Positions 6,438 to 45,233 of a DNA stretch of 60,935 nucleotides are shown here, piece after piece (position 1 is the stretch's first letter; each line of letters opens with the position of its first letter). A program made the translations under genes and the position numbers. Below the pieces are notes generated by a model. That model was given only the letters and a program-made list of their open reading frames with translations. It made no database searches and was not told the DNA's origin. The DNA is from Rhodothermales bacterium (GTDB taxonomy: Bacteria; Bacteroidota; Rhodothermia; Rhodothermales; Bin80): NCBI GenBank assembly GCA_022821875.1, contig JAJECV010000074.1:1-60935 (forward strand), read 5' to 3'.

Positions 6438-6638
6438 CTGTGAAAGGTCCGAGCAAATTCTTGAAGAAATCCGGGCTGGAGTCCCCAACCCAAGTGTCCT
6501 GTAAAATGATGAAACGATGGCGGTCACACCGCAAGGAAAATTCAATGCCGGGATGGGTTCAAAGGCTTCCCGGCAATGCGGAAATACAGCAGACTGCGGA
6601 TGAGATAGCGGGGAATAAAGATCTGATTGCGTAGCATT

Positions 6639-8033
6639 ATGCCTGCAGAATCTCCAGCACCGGGAAATTGTGCCAATTGGCAAAACCGTACGCTGTTTCA
6701 CGGCGATAACCTTTGGTTTCTGAGGGCCATGAACAGCGGGAGCGTAGACCTGATTGCGATTGATCCACCGTTCAACAAGGGGAAAGATTTCCATGCGACT
6801 CCTGACAGTCTTGCTGCCGGGGCACGCTTTCAGGACCGGTGGAGTTGGGAAAAGGATGTGCATCAGGAATGGATTGATCAATTGAAAGATGACTACCCCA
6901 GATTGATGGAAGCCATTGAATCCGCTCAACATGCTCATTCCGAGGGCATGGGTGCTTACCTATGCTTTATGGCAGTGCGGTTGCTGGAAATGCGACGTAT
7001 TCTGAAGCCAACAGGGAGCATATACCTTCACTGCGATCCGACTGCCAGCCACTATCTGAAGGCCGCTATGGATGCAATCTTTGGATACAGGCAGTTCAGG
7101 AATGAGATTATCTGGTGCTACAACGTTGGAGGGAAAAGCCGGCACCATTGGGGACGAAAACATGATGTGATTTTGTATTACACAAAAAGCCGGAAGTATC
7201 ACTTTGACGGGAAAGCTGCTGGCATACCTCGGGATACCGGAAAGAAGAGCTTTGGTGGACGAATTGGTACTGATAAAGATGGTCGTCCATATCAGGATAA
7301 AATTGTCCGTGCCACAGGCAAGATATATCGCTATTACCTTGATGAGCCAAAGATTCCAGAAGATTGGTGGACCGGAATAAATAGCCTCCAGTCAGGATCA
7401 AAAGAACGTCTGGGTTATCCTACCCAGAAACCACTTGCTCTGTACGAACGTATCCTCAAGGCATCCAGCAATGAGGGAGATATAGTCTTTGATCCATTTG
7501 CGGGATGCGCTACAACTCTTGTCGCTGCGGAGAGACTGGATCGCCAGTGGGTTGGCATGGATCTATGGGATGAGTGTAAAAACGTAATCGTACAGCGCTT
7601 GCGAAAGGAAGGGCTAATTCAGAATACGGATCATCCTGATGGCTATCTTTTTCCCAAGGACATTGTATTTACGGATCAGATTCCCGAACGGACTGACGAC
7701 AAAGAAGAAGCTGCTCCATTTCTACGCGTGAAAGTGCGCGTGAAGGAGCCGGAGGGGCCCCGCTGGTCACGCAGGCAGATGTATGACCATCTGTTAGAAC
7801 AGTATGGATGCAAATGCCAGGGATGCGACAGGGAATTTGATGATCCGCGCTATTTGCAATTAGACCATAATACGCCCCGCTCCGATGGAGGCATCAATCA
7901 CATCTCGAACCGTGTTCTGCTTTGCGGCCCCTGTAATCAGCTTAAGAGCAATATCTATACACTGTCGGGGCTTCGCAGAGAAAACAGGAGACGCGGCTAT
8001 ATGGCACCCGGCAAAGATACCCTGTTCCCGTGA
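6639..8033 (+). CDS. Beta-class DNA methyltransferase fused to a C-terminal HNH endonuclease domain
   Basis: About 464 aa from ATG 6639 (a TTG at 6627 is also possible). The N-terminal part is an amino-methyltransferase of the N6-adenine/N4-cytosine group: DPPFN (motif IV, residues 42-46) precedes DPFAGCATTL (SAM-binding motif I), the order typical of the beta class. Residues ~389-437 form an HNH domain with CQGC, LQLDHNTPRSDGG and LCGPCN, that is, a zinc-ribbon HNH with its DH pair and second cysteine pair. No separate restriction gene lies beside it, so this may be a one-protein modification-cleavage enzyme or a modification-dependent nuclease. It sits alone between argS and pheA, which suggests acquisition by transfer. 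Confidence 0.88.
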   Translation: MPAESPAPGNCANWQNRTLFHGDNLWFLRAMNSGSVDLIAIDPPFNKGKDFHATPDSLAAGARFQDRWSWEKDVHQEWIDQLKDDYPRLMEAIESAQHAHSEGMGAYLCFMAVRLLEMRRILKPTGSIYLHCDPTASHYLKAAMDAIFGYRQFRNEIIWCYNVGGKSRHHWGRKHDVILYYTKSRKYHFDGKAAGIPRDTGKKSFGGRIGTDKDGRPYQDKIVRATGKIYRYYLDEPKIPEDWWTGINSLQSGSKERLGYPTQKPLALYERILKASSNEGDIVFDPFAGCATTLVAAERLDRQWVGMDLWDECKNVIVQRLRKEGLIQNTDHPDGYLFPKDIVFTDQIPERTDDKEEAAPFLRVKVRVKEPEGPRWSRRQMYDHLLEQYGCKCQGCDREFDDPRYLQLDHNTPRSDGGINHISNRVLLCGPCNQLKSNIYTLSGLRRENRRRGYMAPGKDTLFP

Positions 8034-12967: not shown

Positions 12968-13185
12968 GAATTCGGTTCAACACATGAATAAAGTTCTACC
13001 GTAATTGGTTCGGAATGATTAAATCTTCTCGGCTTCACCGACCAACATAACTTCATATCTGTCGATTCACAACGATGCCGGTAGAACCATCCTAAATTGA
13101 AGGAACAACGAAAAAATTCCAGACAAAGTCCGCTCAAATTAGCGGAGGGGAGGGGAAAGTAGAAATGCAGATCCGTGAAGACCAT

Positions 13186-13945
13186 TTATTTTGCACCATC
13201 CTTAAACTCTGAGATTGTACGCATCAGGCGTGAGGCGGTTCGCATTACAGGCCAGAGGTGACCCAGTTTATGCGACAGGTCTACATAAGTGGCATCGCCA
13301 CAAAAATATGTTAGCATTGCATGCCACAGCAGAGGCTTTGACCTCTCAATCCTGTGGAAGATGCCGGGCCAACGGTAGAATAGATCGTGCAATATTTTCG
13401 CGGCCCTGATATCGGAAAAGATGTCTTTTTCAAGATTCTGCTGATAGGCTCCCAGACTAGTATTGTTGTTGAGGTGACGGGCGATACCCGCCGGTGCAAT
13501 TTGTGCGGAATAGACGGCCGCGAAGATGCCCTCCCCTGTCAGAGGATCCACCAGACCTGCAGCATCGCCAATGAGAACGACATTCCCGCTTACAACGGCC
13601 GAGGTCTCATGTCGCTGGGGCAGGTGGTGTCCGCGCAGGCCCCATAACGCTTCGGGGGCATGGCCGTAGAATTTAACCAGTTTTTGTAGTTCAGTGCGCA
13701 GTTTTGGTCCAACATGCGTATAGCCCCCCACTCCAATATTGAGATGATCACCCTTTGGAAGGATCCACCCGTAGCCCCCGTCCATGCTGCCGAAATCGAT
13801 ACCAATTGCTTGGACCACTTGTCTGGGACACCACCGTCTTCTGGACTGATATTGTCTTCTAATGCAATGCTGTGATTGTGTTTTGGCAGGTTGATGCCGC
13901 ATAGTCTGGCAGTTACTCCGTTGGCACCGTCCGCCGCCACTGTCT
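13186..13945 (-). pseudogene. Decayed geranylgeranyl-reductase-family FAD oxidoreductase
   Basis: The 3' two-thirds of a GGR-type flavoprotein can be read: IGIDFGSMDGGYGWILPKGDH, then NVVLIGDAAGLVDPLTGEGI, the second FAD motif. The preceding segment VAADGANGVTARLCG is in a different frame (about 13850-13940), so there is at least one frameshift near 13800-13860. Upstream of it are in-frame stops, and no GxGxxG FAD-binding N-terminus is found before uppS. The gene is therefore 5'-truncated and frameshifted. Living members saturate isoprenoid chains of quinones or lipids; here that function appears lost. Confidence 0.8.
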
Positions 13946-14163
13946 AGCGTCAACTAAGAATGAGTTTTGCCACAGGATGCGAATTGCCTCGTTCAACTCG
14001 GCCATGCGGCAGGCATTTCCGGATGTTTGCTAATCCAATATTTCTCTTATGATCTTTGCTCTGGATCTGTCAGTGTGCCGTCAGTCATCAAAATTTTCAA
14101 AATTCTAGTCCGGCAGGCTGGCATACATGCATGCAGGGAACGTATACCTGATGAATCGGACTC

Positions 14164-16554: not shown

Positions 16555-17358
16555 ATGAGCCCACAGGAAGCAGAGATTCTGTACAGGCAAAACAACCCGC
16601 CGTCTCTGGAAGAACTGGCCGCAAGGAAGGAAGCCGCCCGTAACGACAAGGCAGAGGTAAAGGAGAGGGAGAAACGGATGCGTACCTGCATTGAATCAGG
16701 ATGCAACAACCGGACTTCGCCTCCGCCCCGTCAGAATTATCACACCATGAGCATGGAGTTCAGAATGACGTTAGACCCGTACTATCACCTATGCAGGCCA
16801 TGCTACGCAAAATGGCTTTGCCGTAACGCCCATCTGGAGACCGAACACGCAGGGGGCAAGCGGGAGCGTAACCGACAGATCGTTCAGCAGATCACCAGTG
16901 GAGTAAGCCGGGCGGATGTCGCCAAAGCGTTCGGAACGACAAAGGCTTACATGAGCCGGATATGCGTGAGGGCGGACAAAGGAGCCGAAGACCTTCGCAG
17001 GCAGGAATGCAGCGCCCGCAGCACCGAGATCGTTGAATGCGTCCAGACGGGGGAAACCACCGCAGCGGTTGCCAAAGAGTTCGGACCGGCATGGGAAACC
17101 GTACAAAGAATTTGCCAGAGGGCTGGACGGAGTGTGGCAGACCGCTCTCAGGAGACTGAGCCAACAACCCCCGCATACCTGCAGAGATGCATACAAAAAG
17201 GGGCAGATCGCCAGCCCCGAGGGAATGAAGCACTACGGAGGGAGTTGTACCTCCATCGGGACGGGCTTTGCGGCATCTGCGGTCAGCCTATGGCGCTGGA
17301 AGGAACCCACATTGATCACATCATGCTGCGAACCAAGGGAGGAACCAATGATTGGTAA
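16555..17358 (+). CDS. Zinc-finger, two helix-turn-helix units and HNH nuclease; HNH end interrupted
   Basis: 267 aa to the first stop. Order: four-cysteine zinc site (Cys45, Cys50, Cys80, Cys83), HTH unit 1 (~105-140), HTH unit 2 (~155-192), then an HNH domain starting DGLCGICGQ (Cys239, Cys242) and THIDHI (His252, Asp254, His255). The reading stops with TAA right after GGTNDW. The expected continuation is still in the DNA: NLQLTH in the +1 frame, then TCNLIKSYKI back in the first frame, which runs to a TGA at 17446-17448 overlapping the next ATG. So the natural gene probably ended at 17448 and has suffered two small indels within ~30 bases. The two HTH units belong to the same family as those of the next three genes. 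Function unknown; the domains point to site-specific DNA cleavage. Confidence 0.7.
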   Translation: MSPQEAEILYRQNNPPSLEELAARKEAARNDKAEVKEREKRMRTCIESGCNNRTSPPPRQNYHTMSMEFRMTLDPYYHLCRPCYAKWLCRNAHLETEHAGGKRERNRQIVQQITSGVSRADVAKAFGTTKAYMSRICVRADKGAEDLRRQECSARSTEIVECVQTGETTAAVAKEFGPAWETVQRICQRAGRSVADRSQETEPTTPAYLQRCIQKGADRQPRGNEALRRELYLHRDGLCGICGQPMALEGTHIDHIMLRTKGGTNDW

Positions 17359-17444
17359 CCTTCAGTTAACACACCAACCTGCAACCTCATCAAGTCATAC
17401 AAAATTCCGTATGTTTGCGGTGCCGGCACGGAGGGGGAAGAGGG

Positions 17445-18371
17445 ATGACTAGGCAGGAACGAAACCGGCAGATCGTGGAAAGGATCAAGGCAGGCGAACC
17501 CACAAAGGCCGTGGCCAGAAAATTCAAAATGACTTCGGTCAACGTCCGTACCATCTGCCGGAAGGCGGGCATTCGAAAGTACAAGCAACGCCATGATCGT
17601 TCCGCAAAACAGAAACGCAACGAGGAGATCGTTCTCCGCGTCAAGGCGGGGGAAGCCATGGCAGACATTGCCGCCGAGTTCGGGCTGAACCGCGGTTATG
17701 TCCGCGACATCTGCTGGAGGGCTGGAGTCAGCATGCAGGAAAAAGTTCAGCGGGAACGGAAGGAACGGAACGCCGAGATAGTGCACCGCGTTCATGCAGG
17801 GGAAACCTGTGCCGCCGTTGCCAGAGAGTTCGGATTGTCGGCAGGCAGCGTCAGCCACATCTGCCGGGAGGCGGGAGTCAGCCTCCATGCCCGGAGCAAA
17901 GAACAAACCCAGGCCCGGAACGCTGAGATCGTCCGCAGAGTTAAGGCAGGGGAAAGCCTCACGGACACCGCCAAAGCGTTCGGGCTGAAACCCGTATACA
18001 TCGAATTCATCTGTCGGAATGCAGAAGTCAACGGCTGGGGATTGCGGAGGAACCGCAACCGGGAACGGAACCAGCACAGGGAGCGCGATGCTGACATCGT
18101 TCGCAGGATCAAAGATGGCGAAAGTCAGGCATCCATTGCTAGGGAGTTCGGTCTGAAGCCGCACACAGTTCAACACATCTGCCGGAAGGCGGGCATCCGT
18201 CCGCGGGCGCGGTTGAACGACAAAGAGCAACTCCAGACGCGGAACGCCGAGATCGTTCGCAGGGTCAAGGCAGGGGAAACCAAAACCGCCGTGGCGGAGG
18301 CGTTCGAGTTGAAACCGCTCTACATCGGCTTCATCTGCCGGGAGGCGGCAAAGGCGGAGGAAGACGGATGA
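17445..18371 (+). CDS. Six-unit helix-turn-helix array protein A
   Basis: 308 aa made almost wholly of six HTH units beginning near residues 6, 58, 108, 158, 214 and 266. Each follows the plan RNAEIVRRVKAGE, a short variable stretch, VAxEFGL, then the putative recognition helix and ICRxAG. Recognition-helix segments are TSVNVRTIC, NRGYVRDIC, SAGSVSHIC, KPVYIEFIC, KPHTVQHIC and KPLYIGFIC: the Val/Ile and IC stay, the other positions vary. Linkers are basic (QRERKERNAE, RNRNRERNQHR). No catalytic domain is seen. The start is ATG 17445 behind a GGGGGAAGAGG ribosome binding site; it overlaps by ATGA the restored end of the HNH gene, and its own stop overlaps the next ATG the same way. The units resemble resolvase/sigma-4-type HTHs. 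Inferred role: modular sequence-specific DNA binding. Confidence 0.8.
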   Translation: MTRQERNRQIVERIKAGEPTKAVARKFKMTSVNVRTICRKAGIRKYKQRHDRSAKQKRNEEIVLRVKAGEAMADIAAEFGLNRGYVRDICWRAGVSMQEKVQRERKERNAEIVHRVHAGETCAAVAREFGLSAGSVSHICREAGVSLHARSKEQTQARNAEIVRRVKAGESLTDTAKAFGLKPVYIEFICRNAEVNGWGLRRNRNRERNQHRERDADIVRRIKDGESQASIAREFGLKPHTVQHICRKAGIRPRARLNDKEQLQTRNAEIVRRVKAGETKTAVAEAFELKPLYIGFICREAAKAEEDG

Positions 18372-18652
18372 CGGGTGCGGAGCGGGAACAGCTGGCCGGC
18401 ATGATCCTTGAACGGTTCCGGGCGGGAGACACCGTGGTGCAGATCGCAGAGGAACTCGGCATCGCGGACGCGGAACGCATCTGCAAAAAGGAACCGATCG
18501 TCACCGGGAGGCAGCAGGGGGAGCGGATCGCGGAGATTGCCCGCCGCATTGAAACCGGCGAAAACAAGGTTAAACTGTCGAACCAGCGCAACACGGCATG
18601 GGCTGCCGTTGCGCGGATCGGACTGCAGGCGAAGCGAGGGAAGACGGCATGA
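18368..18652 (+). CDS. Short protein with two degenerate helix-turn-helix units
   Basis: 94 aa. Unit one reads ILERFRAGDTVVQIAEELG, then a recognition helix two residues short (IADAERIC). Unit two reads IAEIARRIETGENKVKLS and ends AWAAVARIGLQAKRG, so both framework ends are recognisable but the middle is divergent. The start overlaps protein A's stop by ATGA and its own stop overlaps protein B's start by ATGA, so it is translated as part of the chain. It may be a shrunken array, a partner subunit or a regulator of the operon; nothing distinguishes these. Confidence 0.65.
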   Translation: MTGAEREQLAGMILERFRAGDTVVQIAEELGIADAERICKKEPIVTGRQQGERIAEIARRIETGENKVKLSNQRNTAWAAVARIGLQAKRGKTA

Positions 18653-19575
18653 CCAGAAAGGAACGGAACGCTGAAATAATCCGCCGAGTTCAGGCGGGGG
18701 AAAACAAGGCCGACCTTGCCGATGAATTTGGATTGAGCGAAGGCACGGTCACCGGCATCTGCTACGCCGGGGGAATCACCGGCAAAGAGAAACACCGGGA
18801 GCGCAACCGGCAGATCGTGGAACGCGTCCAGAAAGGGGAAAGCACCCATGCAGTTGCCGCTGAGTTCGAACTGGGGCAGCCAGCCGTTGCCCACATCTGC
18901 AGGCAGGCGGGCATAAATTCCAGGAATGAACGGAAAAAACGGGAGGAACGTCAGGCACAGGAACGCCGGGAGCGCAACCGGCAGATCGCAGAGCGGATCA
19001 GTGCGGGGGAAACCCTCGCCGGCCTTGCCAGAGAGTTCGGGCTGACTAGGGAGCGCGTGCGTCAGATCGGAAGGAACGCGGGAATCAGCGTCCGGGCAAT
19101 GAAGCGGGAACGGAACGCGGAGATCGTGGAGCGGATCAGGGCAGGCGAAACTACCGCCGCCGTTGCCCGAAAGTTCGGTCTGTCCACGAATCACGTGACT
19201 CACATCTGCAGGCAGTCTGGCACCAGCGTTCACGCCATGAGCCGGGAACGGGAGCGGAGTAAACATCGGGAGCGGGATCAGGAGATTGTCCGCAGGGTCA
19301 AAATAGGAGAAACCCAGGCCGCCCTTGCCAGAGAATTCGGACTGCCGCCGCACCGAGTCAGCCGCATCTGCCGGGAGGCGGGCATCCGTCCGCGGGGACG
19401 GCTGAATGACAAAAAGCAACTCCAGGCCCGGAACGCCGAGATCGTCCGCAGAGTCAAAGAGGGAGACCCCCTCGCTGCCGTTGCAAAGAGGTTCGGACTG
19501 AAGCCGCCCTACGTTGACTTCATCTGCCGGGAGGCGGCGAACCGGAAGAAGAGGCAAGCCCGGCAGTCCAAATAA
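18649..19575 (+). CDS. Six-unit helix-turn-helix array protein B, paralogue of A
   Basis: 308 aa, exactly the length of protein A, again with six HTH units (starting near residues 6, 52, 109, 155, 209 and 261). Recognition segments: SEGTVTGIC, GQPAVAHIC, TRERVRQIG, STNHVTHIC, PPHRVSRIC, KPPYVDFIC. The N-terminus (MTRKERNAEI against MTRQERNRQI) and the unit 5-6 junction (AGIRPRGRLNDKKQLQ against AGIRPRARLNDKEQLQ) show that A and B arose by duplication, while the inner units have drifted or been shuffled. Starts at ATG 18649 inside the stop of the 94-aa gene. No nuclease or other enzyme motif. Inferred to bind an extended DNA site different from that of A. Confidence 0.8.
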   Translation: MTRKERNAEIIRRVQAGENKADLADEFGLSEGTVTGICYAGGITGKEKHRERNRQIVERVQKGESTHAVAAEFELGQPAVAHICRQAGINSRNERKKREERQAQERRERNRQIAERISAGETLAGLAREFGLTRERVRQIGRNAGISVRAMKRERNAEIVERIRAGETTAAVARKFGLSTNHVTHICRQSGTSVHAMSRERERSKHRERDQEIVRRVKIGETQAALAREFGLPPHRVSRICREAGIRPRGRLNDKKQLQARNAEIVRRVKEGDPLAAVAKRFGLKPPYVDFICREAANRKKRQARQSK

Positions 19576-35671: not shown

Positions 35672-37708
35672 TTATGCGCCGGGGATAGGATTTCTAATTT
35701 CGTTAATGCGAAATTTGAGGTTTTTTCTTGGTGCACAGGATGGAAATGGATTGATCTTGAGTTCCCTGTTTTCCGGGGCCAACTCCATCTTAAAGTGGTA
35801 TGCAAGGAGCATGATGTTTACGGCTAACTGTAGATCCGTTTGGCGCTGCCCAGGGCAGGTATGAGTCCCTAGACCATATGGTGCATAGGCGCCGGGCTGC
35901 TTATGCTCTGCACGATCCGGCAAATAGCGATCAATATCAAATTTGTCTGGATCTTTGTAAAGATTTGCATCGTAGTGAGGTGCGGTGCTGCCAATGAGCA
36001 CCCGCGACTCTGGAGGAATTTCATAACCGTCATAGGAGCATCGGTTCACTACTCCTCTGATCTGCCATGGTATCACGGGATACATACGGGTGGTCTCCAT
36101 GATAAGACGGTATGTAATGTCGGCATTTCTGAAGCAAAAATCTTTTTCTTCAGGGATATGTCCATTGCCGAAAAGTTTTTTTGCTTCCTGATAGACACCA
36201 TCGTATATCTCCGGGTTCTTCAGCATACAGTAGAGTACAAAGGCAATAGCTGCCCCCATGTATATACTTGCGACCATGATGGAGACGAACGAGAAGGTTA
36301 AATCTGTTTCTGACAGAAGTTGGGGATCATTTCTGTGTAACTCCATAAACTTGTCTGGAATATCAACGGGCTGTCCCTTTCGCTGCCCTGGCGTGTGTGA
36401 GGCAATGATCATCTCCCTGAGTTCAGTTACCCGCTTTCGGTAACGCCTCATTCTAGGCGTTCGCATCATGAATGGGGGTAAACCGCCTGCCACTCGCGTA
36501 ATCAATGCACGATGTTCGTAGTCTAGCAACTCTTCGGAGAAATGGGTACAGTCTACACTTGTGGACAGGTTTGAGACCTGAGCACTGGCCAACGTTCTGA
36601 GTGCAGGGGTCATCGAGAAGACATCCCCCTTTTTCCATTCTTTTATGGAGGATCTGTTATGACGGTACAACTCTGGTAGACGGTTTCCAAGTGCAGAACG
36701 GGCATAGGCTCCTTTTATCGTCTTGCGCATTCTATAATGATCTGCGCCGTCGGATCCTGGCAAGGTTGTAGTAGAACCGAATTCGCTCTCAAGATCCCCG
36801 ATATACTCCTTGGTTCGAAAGTAAAATCGGGAATGTTTGTGGACCCACTGGTTGGCATCCGCTCCCATCACAGCATAAAGAGGGAACCCCTTCATTTTGA
36901 AGGGCATTTTCACGACGGATCCATATTTAGCATGGATACGCTGTAATCCCTTCGCAATATGTCCATCGAGGAAGTCTCGCTGGCGAAAAATATCAACTAC
37001 TTTAACATTCGGAATGGGTTTGATCGGGGCGGCCTTCCGCCTAGGCTGGACGGTGCTGTTCTCAACCGCTGCAGCAACCGTTCGGCCCACGAGATCAAGT
37101 TTGGCAAGTAATTCAATCCGATCCTCTGCATCCTGATAGTCTTCCTCTTCAAGCAAAAACTTGAACCCCTCTATTACATGCATTAAGGCAATTAAAATTG
37201 CATCTCTCGGGTCGGGAATGTTTGTCCTGAATATTACATCAAAGATTCTTGCCTTTGCTTCTCGCTGCATGACTGACACGCTGGGGTAGGTGCCCGTCCG
37301 CAAAACTGATTTGCTAAGACTGAAAAACCTGCCAAGTTCGCGATTCAGGATCCCCTTTTCTACCAGGCTGTCCAGCGTAGCACTAACGATTTGATCCGAT
37401 CTGATTGAAATTCGTTCAATCCAGTACTGTGAGTCGTGAACTTCCCCCTTCTCCTTAGACTCTGTGATTTCCTGCAGTGCAAGATCCAACAGTTCATCTC
37501 CGGTCGGGGTAGGGTCAGACAAATAAAGTGCATTTAAGTCTGTATCAATTCGGTTCCTGAGTGCAAGATCGGCAATGATCGTTCCTGCCATGGTACAGGC
37601 GAAACTCCAGCCGGGCGCAATTTCCAGATAGCCGGTTTTCTCGTTCAGCATGAGAAGAATTAATTCTTCTGCAAGGCTAATTTCAAAGGAACGGGTGTCT
37701 GTGCTCAT
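35672..37708 (-). CDS. GOLPH3 (GPP34)-domain / cytochrome P450 fusion protein
   Basis: 678 aa from ATG 37708; the frame is open to 37822 but the extension is not domain-like. Residues ~7-225 resemble the GPP34/GOLPH3 fold: LAEELILLML, SFACTMAGTIIADLALRNRI, PTGDELLDLAL, YWIERI, LVEKGILNRE. Residues ~245-670 are a cytochrome P450 with the ExxR helix (Glu538-Arg541, METTRMYP) and the heme loop PYGLGTHTC with Cys618. The I-helix reads MGAAI (484-488), so the usual acid-threonine pair for oxygen activation is missing. GOLPH3 binds phosphoinositide lipids in eukaryotes; here it may hold the P450 at a membrane. Transcribed toward the end of the heme operon, downstream of the Rieske gene. Confidence 0.88.
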   Translation of the reverse strand: MSTDTRSFEISLAEELILLMLNEKTGYLEIAPGWSFACTMAGTIIADLALRNRIDTDLNALYLSDPTPTGDELLDLALQEITESKEKGEVHDSQYWIERISIRSDQIVSATLDSLVEKGILNRELGRFFSLSKSVLRTGTYPSVSVMQREAKARIFDVIFRTNIPDPRDAILIALMHVIEGFKFLLEEEDYQDAEDRIELLAKLDLVGRTVAAAVENSTVQPRRKAAPIKPIPNVKVVDIFRQRDFLDGHIAKGLQRIHAKYGSVVKMPFKMKGFPLYAVMGADANQWVHKHSRFYFRTKEYIGDLESEFGSTTTLPGSDGADHYRMRKTIKGAYARSALGNRLPELYRHNRSSIKEWKKGDVFSMTPALRTLASAQVSNLSTSVDCTHFSEELLDYEHRALITRVAGGLPPFMMRTPRMRRYRKRVTELREMIIASHTPGQRKGQPVDIPDKFMELHRNDPQLLSETDLTFSFVSIMVASIYMGAAIAFVLYCMLKNPEIYDGVYQEAKKLFGNGHIPEEKDFCFRNADITYRLIMETTRMYPVIPWQIRGVVNRCSYDGYEIPPESRVLIGSTAPHYDANLYKDPDKFDIDRYLPDRAEHKQPGAYAPYGLGTHTCPGQRQTDLQLAVNIMLLAYHFKMELAPENRELKINPFPSCAPRKNLKFRINEIRNPIPGA

Positions 37709-38150
37709 TTTCAATTTACGGGTAACATTTGGAATGTATGTTTGAAGAAATAACGGAAATAACAACATGGTGAGGCTCTTGCAAAACGAATAATCCAGAT
37801 TAAAAAGCACTCCTGATTGCACTCAGGTGAACCAAAACTTTCAAGATCGGGAGTTTTGCAAGATGCTCCAGTAATTTGTGACAGTCTTCGATCAGACCAA
37901 GGAAAACGGGATAAGAGCGCCTCCAGAAGAATCTCCGCCTGCCCGATTGCTGCTAAGATACGGATACCCCGTCTGTTCAGATCACATCTGTCAGAATACT
38001 CAATGGATGACAATTGGCTTTTGTTTGAATCGGTCACTTCTATGTGTAAACCTTGTTGAGGTTCCAGGTTTGCTTTTTCCGCAAAACCCCCCTTGATTGG
38101 GAAGATTTCGACAATAGGGTAGTCATTTTATTTGTTTTGTGGATCAGTGG

Positions 38151-38440: not shown

Positions 38441-39436
38441 TTATGATGGGTAGAATTGTCTGCAATAGCGGCGATATCTTCCGATTTCGCCATCTGACTT
38501 GGACAATCGCGGCTGTGTGGCATATCTCTTGTTCTGCCAGATAAAGACATCATCCATTACCTCCTTCTTGTGAAAAAACAGAACCAACCTGTTCATGAGG
38601 CTGGTTCGAAAACTCACTGGCAGAAATCCCATTCCAATAATTGCCCGCTTCGGTTTGCGCAACTGCCTCACCTGCGTGGCCAGCACGACATCAACATATT
38701 TTCCATCTACCGGAGTCGTAAACATGTAGAATTTGATGTGCATATCAATGGATCTTTCGTGGATGGTCACATTAGAGACACCAAGCCCATAGATCTCCGC
38801 TTTTGCACAGACATTAAGTTGGATTTTCAGCCCACCCACATTCTGGAATCGAGCGAGTTCAAAATGGCTCCGAAGGTAATGCCCATCTATTTTCAGCGGT
38901 TCCATTCGCTTCACATTTTCAAAGCCGTGCACATATCGTAAATGTGCCAAGTCTACGGAGTTTTCCGTCGTTTCCTGAGGGTGTCCGGGGAATCGAATGG
39001 TTTCAAATGCAAGATCCGTCCAGTCCCCCTTGCTCTTCTGATGCTCCGGCAGGTTCCATTGCGGGGGACGTCCATTAATTCCCCACCAGGCAAAGATCAT
39101 CCCGTTCATCTCCCACATGTCATAGAGCTTTAACTTCGCCGTTTTCGGGGGTGGAGCGAAAGGAGTAGAGACACAACTGCCACCTGGTTCAAACTCAAAT
39201 CCATGGAAAGGACAGACCAGACGGCCGTTTCGTACGCGTCCCCCAGATTCAGGGCCCAAATCTGCACCCAGATGCGGACAGAATGCATCCGCCACACAGA
39301 CATCACCCGCGTCATTGCACCAGACAATAATTTCCTCCCCCATCCAGATCTTACGGATTAACTTCTTTTCAAGCAGATTCTTTCGACTGGTCACGAAGTA
39401 CCATCCCTCGGGAAATGACGGGATTTGGTTGAGCAT
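38441..39436 (-). CDS. Rieske non-heme iron oxygenase, steroid (DAF-36/KshA)-like
   Basis: 331 aa. The start is ATG 39436, preceded by GGAGGTGA at ideal spacing. The Rieske [2Fe-2S] site is Cys53-x-His55 and Cys75-x2-His78 (CPHLGADLG, CPFHGFEF). The mononuclear iron ligands are Asp162, His165 and His170 in VDLAHLRYVH, with a later Asp in EVMDDVFIW. The ending IWQNKRYATQPRLS and GRYRRYCRQFY resembles cholesterol 7-desaturases (DAF-36/Neverland) and bacterial steroid oxygenases. It needs a reductase, not found here. Substrate unproven; an isoprenoid or sterol-like molecule is plausible given the P450 and efflux neighbours. It is divergent from the first RND system. Confidence 0.88.
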   Translation of the reverse strand: MLNQIPSFPEGWYFVTSRKNLLEKKLIRKIWMGEEIIVWCNDAGDVCVADAFCPHLGADLGPESGGRVRNGRLVCPFHGFEFEPGGSCVSTPFAPPPKTAKLKLYDMWEMNGMIFAWWGINGRPPQWNLPEHQKSKGDWTDLAFETIRFPGHPQETTENSVDLAHLRYVHGFENVKRMEPLKIDGHYLRSHFELARFQNVGGLKIQLNVCAKAEIYGLGVSNVTIHERSIDMHIKFYMFTTPVDGKYVDVVLATQVRQLRKPKRAIIGMGFLPVSFRTSLMNRLVLFFHKKEVMDDVFIWQNKRYATQPRLSKSDGEIGRYRRYCRQFYPS

Positions 39437-39614
39437 GCTCACCTCCATAGGAACTGTACAGATTTTTCAGATTTTAACATGGCGGTACAGAAAAGTCAGC
39501 AATGAAACGATTTCCCCAAATTTTTGTTTGCTGCAGGTTCAGAAGGACAAATTCCCTTAATTTTCAGCATATCTGGAAAATATAGCAAAGTTCGATCAAA
39601 CCTGAATCATCGCA

Positions 39615-44030: not shown

Positions 44031-45233
44031 TTACCATTCCTGGGATAAAGCGTCCTTAACATGGGTTGGCAGTTCATAACTGATTCCTATGATTTCGTCA
44101 AACGAGGAAATTCCCAATAACTCCAAAAAATTTTTCCTCCTCATGAACTGGGTATCCTTGAGCATGCTCTCAAGGAATATGCGGCTACGGAACAACAGGA
44201 GTGCAATGAATCCGTTATAGTCCGGGAACTGCAGAGCATCTGCCCGCTTTCGCCCAATGAGGACCCGGGAAAGGGCGTACCCCAATTTGATCTGCTCTTC
44301 CGCCTCCTCTGCATTTTCAATTCCTACAACCAGGGGTACAGCACGGACCAGTTGATTGGCTACATAGACTGAGTCCTCATCCGGATACGGTTCACACAAC
44401 AGACCGATCTTGAAGATCTGCTTGGCCTCTTTTTTGTTCTCGTACAGGATGGCATCCGGGATCCCGAACAGGTACCCTACGTAGCGGAACGTGTCCATAA
44501 AACTTTCCTGCTCCTCCCTGCTGAATCGCACCCCCAGGAGCTTGGAGAAATGCAGAGTTCGCATGGAAAATACCGAAATGGCATAGCCTAGATGGGCGGC
44601 ACTCAAGGGATGCCCCCAAGCCTCGTGATCCCATTCATCGGAATGGTTAAGCAGGTAGCGCACCTTGGCATGAACGAAGCGGATGCGCAGGGTCATCTTG
44701 AATCCGTCGTTTGGCCGCAACATGCCGTCAGGATAAAACATTTCAAGTAGATGTCGGGAATTATAGCCTAGTCGCCGTTTGGTATTCTTTGAACCAACTC
44801 TTCCCGTGATCCGGAAAGACTTGGCTATCATCGTTGAAAACCCCTCCACAAGAACGCCTGCAACAAAAGCGGCAAGCACCAAGCCTGCATTTTTGTAGAC
44901 CACACGGCATGAAGGTCGAAATGATTCGTAGTTCAGCCAGGGTGGCTTCGTGTTGTCTACCTTGTGAAAGAATTCCCGCAAACTGTCGGGCGCTCCAACC
45001 AGAAACTCTTCCTTCTGCTCAATACCGGCCCGCACAAACCGGTTAAATTTATCCGGCTCCAATATGGACGAACATTCTTCCACGACTGGATCCAGCTCAG
45101 GATCACCAATGGTCGTATGATGAATATACAGATCAGCTAAGGCCCGGTTCTTTTGGAGTGCTTTTGCATAGCCTGGCTGATAATTGGCCGGAATAAAACT
45201 GGGGGGGGGAACCGCTTTGATTGAATTCAACAT
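44031..45233 (-). CDS. Oxygenase MpaB family (latex-clearing-protein-like) protein
   Basis: 400 aa. The conserved block RIRFVHAKVRYLLN, then EWDHEAWGHPLSAAHLGYAI is typical of the MpaB/Lcp-like (DUF2236) family, members of which cleave isoprenoid chains or polyisoprene using heme. A hydrophobic segment (GLVLAAFVAGVLVEGFSTMIA) lies in the first half. Activity is not established for most members. The N-terminus is MLNSIKAVPPPSF, whose three prolines are encoded by a run of nine Cs, a possible phase-variation site. It lies between the two RND systems and is transcribed against the first. Confidence 0.82.
   Translation of the reverse strand: MLNSIKAVPPPSFIPANYQPGYAKALQKNRALADLYIHHTTIGDPELDPVVEECSSILEPDKFNRFVRAGIEQKEEFLVGAPDSLREFFHKVDNTKPPWLNYESFRPSCRVVYKNAGLVLAAFVAGVLVEGFSTMIAKSFRITGRVGSKNTKRRLGYNSRHLLEMFYPDGMLRPNDGFKMTLRIRFVHAKVRYLLNHSDEWDHEAWGHPLSAAHLGYAISVFSMRTLHFSKLLGVRFSREEQESFMDTFRYVGYLFGIPDAILYENKKEAKQIFKIGLLCEPYPDEDSVYVANQLVRAVPLVVGIENAEEAEEQIKLGYALSRVLIGRKRADALQFPDYNGFIALLLFRSRIFLESMLKDTQFMRRKNFLELLGISSFDEIIGISYELPTHVKDALSQEW
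45201..45209. repeat. G9 homopolymer tract inside the start of the MpaB-family gene
   Basis: Nine Gs on the plus strand encode Pro-Pro-Pro at residues 9-11 of the minus-strand gene. A gain or loss of one base would shift the frame almost at the beginning and abolish the protein. Second tract of this length in the window. Confidence 0.7.

Follow-up and report, generated by a model that had tools for sequence, protein, structure and literature searches.

In Methylococcus capsulatus, a sterol maker, CYP51 is fused to a C-terminal ferredoxin, and this bacterial P450 fusion is one of the known systems closest to the protein reported here, in which a GPP34 (GOLPH3-like) domain precedes the P450. 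In GOLPH3, a PI4P site (R90, R171, N172, R174) and a hydrophobic hairpin contact the bilayer, and an acidic face binds short basic tails of Golgi membrane enzymes (PMC12494035, PMC8421267); the hairpin inserts into the bilayer (PMC12494035). The role of GPP34 in bacteria is scarcely understood. SCO4440, the GOLPH3-like protein of Streptomyces coelicolor, also has a bacterial GPP34 domain but is unlike the fusion: it stands alone, adjoins a carboxypeptidase gene and is tied to peptidoglycan changes (PMC12402492), with no P450 attached. Bacterial sterol clusters with SMT, sdmA and sdmB have been described (PMC10070321); GPP34-P450 is absent from the text of that paper, in which P450, Rieske and Rhodotherm- do not occur.

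The window (the whole stretch analysed, 60,935 nucleotides of a Rhodothermales draft genome of 3.68 Mb in 147 contigs) carries a gene for a GPP34-P450 fusion. The protein resembles GOLPH3 and Vps74 in the fold of the whole GPP34 domain and in its hydrophobic hairpin; unlike them, it lacks the PI4P-site residues, is far more acidic in this domain, is joined to a P450 and belongs to a bacterium without Golgi, COPI or PI4P system. The original prediction knew of no characterised example; none was found in the open-access literature and, as far as we can find, the fusion is undescribed. A fixed fusion to an enzyme offers a direct handle on the GPP34 domain outside the Golgi.

The fusion gene and its distribution

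The gene (Table 1) starts with ATG at 37708 and ends with a stop at 35672. The prediction of a P450 joined to a GOLPH3-like domain was upheld for both halves by profile and fold: PF05719 was matched over profile positions 1–199 of 201 with 106.2 bits (curated cut-off 29.1 bits), a check of the N-terminal half that had been set beforehand and with which the structure search agrees, and the Pfam p450 profile over positions 15–449 of 462. The predicted borders (residues 7–225 and 245–670) were approximately right, the exact ones being those of Table 1. The model of the full protein (AlphaFold2, alignment of 23 fusions) had a mean pLDDT of 86.7 and a pTM of 0.74. No transmembrane helix was found in the fusion, whose most hydrophobic segment is either the I helix or a helix in the core of GPP34.

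Table 1: Features of the locus in window coordinates (aa, residues of the fusion protein).
Feature	Position	Strand	Basis
GPP34-P450 fusion gene, subfamily A (678 aa)	35672..37708	-	profile; conservation in relatives
GPP34 (GOLPH3-like) domain, aa 12-216	37061..37675	-	Pfam PF05719, E 3.1e-30; GOLPH3 fold match, Z 18.8
Cytochrome P450 domain, aa 243-656	35741..36982	-	Pfam p450, E 8.5e-37; CYP46A1/CYP51 fold matches
Heme-thiolate loop YGLGTHTCPG with C618	35849..35878	-	G612, G614, H616, C618, G620 invariant
K-helix ExxR (E538-R541)	36086..36097	-	motif in alignment
I-helix segment ASIYMG (aa 480-485), acid/alcohol pair absent	36254..36271	-	all 15 A and A' sequences
Predicted beta hairpin (aa 121-131, F128/F129), corresponding to the hairpin that GOLPH3 inserts into membranes	37316..37348	-	predicted strands, residue character; PMC12494035
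Rieske oxygenase with KshA_C domain, conserved upstream neighbour	38441..39448	-	profile, locus comparison
MpaB/Lcp-type oxygenase (MPAB_Lcp_cat), near the fusion only in this species and in G004	44031..45233	-	profile, locus comparison
Deletion scar	13940..13944	.	L027 6284/10510 join at window 13944/13940, flanks 95% identical

Several other readings of the locus were rejected. The plus strand of the same interval is full of stops. A longer start (GTG at 37822, 716 aa), with a hydrophobic stretch as possible anchor, was discarded because a stop lies just upstream of the ATG in a 97% identical relative (Rhodothermales MAG, GenBank JAJECE010000071.1). Assembly error or chance join was excluded, since the full-length fusion recurs in genomes of the same genus and in single-contig genomes (G011, G039, G048). 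Phage origin was dismissed (no GPP34 matches in phages), as was plasmid origin (among plasmid records, none covers 80% of the fusion); no GPP34-P450 fusion was seen in plasmids or phages. The GPP34 model had no match in a viral structure library. The two-domain fusion is real, old and conserved.

The search for the same two-domain layout, proposed with the original prediction, returned some two dozen full-length fusions, all from two families (order Rhodothermales), with 23–97% identity. Among 59 relatives the full fusion was present in every genome of the same genus, in G011, G012 and G014 of the same family, and in four genomes of genus g20 (family f15); in G002 the B copy (see below) is whole and the A copy is a 79-aa piece, the end of the gene, at a contig edge. 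Searches for GPP34 (395 genomes of the phylum, 114 of the order, 245 of the class) added two more g20 genomes; the carriers amount to 19 of the 114 genomes of the order. No fusion was found outside Rhodothermales in the genomes of phylum and class, other phyla being hardly covered, and with absence thus weakly tested a restriction to the order is not claimed. A contig scan with single-protein patterns found just one relative (97% identical), as such patterns reach close relatives only. The other GPP34 proteins of the searched genomes were mostly stand-alone (220–340 aa). In annotated plasmid loci no stand-alone GPP34 gene adjoined a P450 gene (Rosetta-stone arrangement); the neighbours of stand-alone genes in Bacteroidota were read by eye only.

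The maximum-likelihood tree separated, with full support, A (13 proteins, including that of the window) and two more distant A' proteins from B (8 proteins); A and B are two ancient subfamilies. Full-length A (or A') and B occur together in five genomes of the genus (G003, G004, G005, G007, G008), and the genome of the window has A only. At the position of the deletion scar (Table 1) the sister genome G004 carries an additional segment of about 4.2 kb. It contains genes for a sulfotransferase and a type B GPP34-P450, together with the beginning of a geranylgeranyl-reductase gene; the truncated remainder of the latter lies in the window at 13186–13953 (region 13096–13953), at a clean deletion. 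The A sequences of g20 group in the tree with that of G011 from the other family, so that transfer of the A-type fusion between families appears possible.

Sterol genes, neighbouring genes and the proposed role

The source genome has two P450s only, the fusion and a clear CYP51 (2.6e-97 to the M. capsulatus enzyme). The possibility that the fusion itself serves as CYP51 of this genome was rejected: its best CYP51 match reached 4e-14 with the single sequence versus 2.6e-97 for the other P450, and the AGxHTS-like I-helix motif of CYP51 is absent from it (ASIYMG instead). The CYP51 gene belongs to a complete-looking sterol cluster (L104:5369-14516, contig C62 of the source genome G000) that also holds SdmB (1e-90), SdmA (4e-124), an ERG24-type reductase (ERG4/ERG24, 1.7e-68), a homologue of sterol C-24 methyltransferase (SMT) and a 1156-aa protein in which squalene epoxidase is joined to oxidosqualene cyclase (OSC); these assignments were made by profile, several scores lying below the NCBIfam equivalog cut-offs. 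The same enzyme set is found in this genome, its relatives and the published clusters (PMC10070321). ORFs of similar length with the cyclase were also noticed in G002, G004, G005, G029 and G462; the open-access literature gave no match for a squalene epoxidase-cyclase fusion or for sterols of Rhodothermales.

Of the 114 genomes of the order, 13 have SMT, 7 have strong OSC and 9 have strong ERG24; every one of these belongs to the 19 fusion carriers. The naive probability of the SMT co-occurrence, 6e-13, counts related genomes; counted by genus (2/2 within 5/49) p is about 0.009. The co-occurrence, seen in two genera, is not independent of descent. The gene for a KshA-type Rieske oxygenase lies upstream of the fusion, on the same strand, in all eight loci having one nearby, and strong matches to it were restricted, in the genomes searched, to carriers of A or A'. 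In G006 the Rieske, fusion and SMT genes share a strand and are separated by 218 and 265 bases; in G003, G006, G008 and G009 an SMT of a second type lies 0.3–6.3 kb from the A gene. In g20 the operon also includes a gene for a flavoprotein of the amine-oxidase family; no remnant of this gene was found in the Rieske-fusion gap. Sulfotransferase, acyltransferase and geranylgeranyl reductase are the neighbours of type B. Type B fusions (loci L024, L025, L026) directly precede an acyltransferase-3 gene, the start of which overlaps the fusion end in L024, and a sulfotransferase gene adjoins type B in G014 and G004. The MpaB/Lcp-type gene of the window sits between two RND efflux operons; enzymes of the MpaB/latex-oxygenase family cleave isoprenoid chains, and this one may be part of the same lipid theme.

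The sterol-gene context supports the earlier suggestion of a lipid-like substrate. The reading preferred here, to which a probability of about 0.5 is given, is that the fusion is a P450 of the CYP51/CYP46/CYP120 kind that docks at the membrane and has sterols or related isoprenoids as substrates; docking, substrate class and reaction are all inferred. The N-terminal GPP34 domain would replace the transmembrane anchor of eukaryotic P450s, the P450 itself being soluble; it would rest on the inner membrane through its hydrophobic hairpin, without a PI4P pocket, and hold the P450 entrance at the bilayer or beside a membrane-bound partner. The substrate of the P450 would then be a sterol or an isoprenoid lipid closely related to sterols, and the co-conserved Rieske oxygenase would work alongside it; in some members of the group the flavoprotein and the sterol methyltransferase would also take part. 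Such a fusion would be a candidate for a new step in the bacterial synthesis of sterols, in organisms that have sterol methyltransferases of their own, and would bear on how alkylated steranes are used as fossils of eukaryotes (PMC10070321). A stronger form, speculative and, taken as a whole, improbable, is a branch of bacterial sterol tailoring that relies on a module of GOLPH3 fold. This module, independently of phosphoinositides, would dock a P450 that has given up normal O2 activation and catalyses an unusual step on alkylated sterols. If this stronger form is true, the eukaryotic task of GOLPH3, to hold lipid and sugar enzymes at the membrane, would have a bacterial counterpart fused directly to its client.

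On the choice of substrate this reading has a rival. G011, G012, G014 and the complete single-contig G039 keep the fusion without SMT, OSC or ERG24, so that their substrate, if it is a sterol, would have to be acquired. A lipid or isoprenoid other than a sterol, such as a carotenoid, a menaquinone, a squalene derivative or a fatty acid, is conceivable, the sterol link then being one of shared ancestry: squalene/phytoene synthases were found in all nine genomes tested, and the neighbours of type B agree with it. The SMT genes adjoining type A in four genomes, the Rieske KshA_C partner and the sterol-type fold of the P450 argue for the sterol.

P450 domain and its I helix

The best fold matches of the P450 half were CYP46A1 (Z 36.8) and Methylococcus CYP51 (Z 36.7; structures 6mcw and 7snm), with CYP184A1, CYP120A1 and CYP170A1 near; all best matches fall within about two Z units. 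The profile of the window subfamily gave CYP51 as first match (4e-28). The M. capsulatus fusion is among the best matches by structure and by profile. The best solved relatives act on sterols or terpenoids (CYP51, CYP46A1, CYP90B1, taxadiene hydroxylase, CYP120A1). CYP46A1, CYP90B1, CYP120A1, CYP184A1 and CYP170A1, which rank among the nearest solved structures, share the P450 fold at 16–21% identity and have no GPP34 domain; identity to CYP51 or CYP46A1 is 16–18%, which does not fix the substrate.

C618, E538 and R541 are invariant in the 23 fusions. The acid and threonine of the I helix are missing in 15/15 A and A' sequences, the segments being of ASIY[MLVG]G type. In type B the segment is GLDTT, GLHTT or closely similar (H or D kept; T next in 7/8), and CYP51 of the same genome reads AGQHTS; M. 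capsulatus CYP51, unlike the window fusion, keeps the H-T pair, and the source genome has its CYP51 separately. The acid/alcohol pair normally delivers protons for the activation of O2. As this pair is absent, the reaction of type A is probably atypical or substrate-assisted.

The same loss, with the heme motifs kept, would suit a type A protein that no longer uses O2 in the normal way and acts as peroxygenase, isomerase, dehydratase or regulatory sterol binder. This is a tenable, though tentative, proposal and is compatible with the membrane-docked sterol P450 preferred above. It is weakened by the example of P450eryF, where the threonine is missing from the I helix and the substrate itself assists hydroxylation.

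GPP34 domain and possible membrane docking

The GPP34 half, modelled alone (pLDDT 85.7, pTM 0.84), was superimposed on GOLPH3 (9qpq) with Z 18.8 (rmsd 2.9 over 198 residues) and on Vps74 with Z 18.3; matches to GOLPH3/Vps74 span Z 16.9–18.8, the next unrelated row has Z 4.5 and the rest do not exceed it. W81 was counted with the PI4P-site columns of GOLPH3. GOLPH3 W81, R90, R171 and R174 correspond to P32, A41, D105 and V108 in the window protein; the R90 column holds A, V or S in all fusions, and in the R174 column one R is kept in B-type sequences. By this alignment the GOLPH3-type PI4P-site residues are not conserved in the window protein.

The hairpin strands are predicted at residues 121–124 and 128–131, and the aromatic residues F128 and F/W/Y129 are kept among the fusions. 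The GPP34 domain has pI 4.3–4.8 versus 8.7–9.5 for the P450 domain in all 15 A and A' proteins. These data fit either hairpin docking without PI4P or an adaptor role in which an acidic face binds protein. The proposal that the domain places the P450 on a membrane is plausible from residue character: the aromatic hairpin is kept, the fusion lacks a transmembrane helix, and GPP34 occupies the position of the membrane anchor of eukaryotic P450s. The acidity of the domain does not favour binding of anionic lipids and would count against the preferred reading.

That acidity, beside a basic P450 domain, speaks for GPP34 as a protein adaptor and not a membrane binder, its acidic face holding a basic partner (the P450 domain itself, a protein of the redox chain or membrane enzymes with basic tails). 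Clients of GOLPH3 use basic tails on its acidic face (PMC8421267, PMC12494035); the hydrophobic hairpin tip is conserved too, the partner is hypothetical, and the adaptor is considered somewhat unlikely. Phosphoinositide reading as in eukaryotes, implied by the original prediction, may be set aside as highly improbable: the fold is the same and B-type sequences have R at the R174 column, but the site residues are replaced and the domain is acidic.

A further GPP34 fusion was noticed in G093, a distant member of the phylum (L052:1-2121; ORF of 963 aa), where the domain is N-terminal to a part that looks, by eye and not by profile, like a molybdopterin oxidoreductase; it would be a second GPP34-redox enzyme fusion in the phylum. 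Elsewhere in the window, ORFs of many short helix-turn-helix-like units occupy 16555–19575 on the plus strand, the first ending in an HNH-like part, and the AT skew jumps there to 0.24–0.27; at 6627–8033 a DNA methyltransferase and an apparent HNH nuclease tail (by eye) are combined in one protein.
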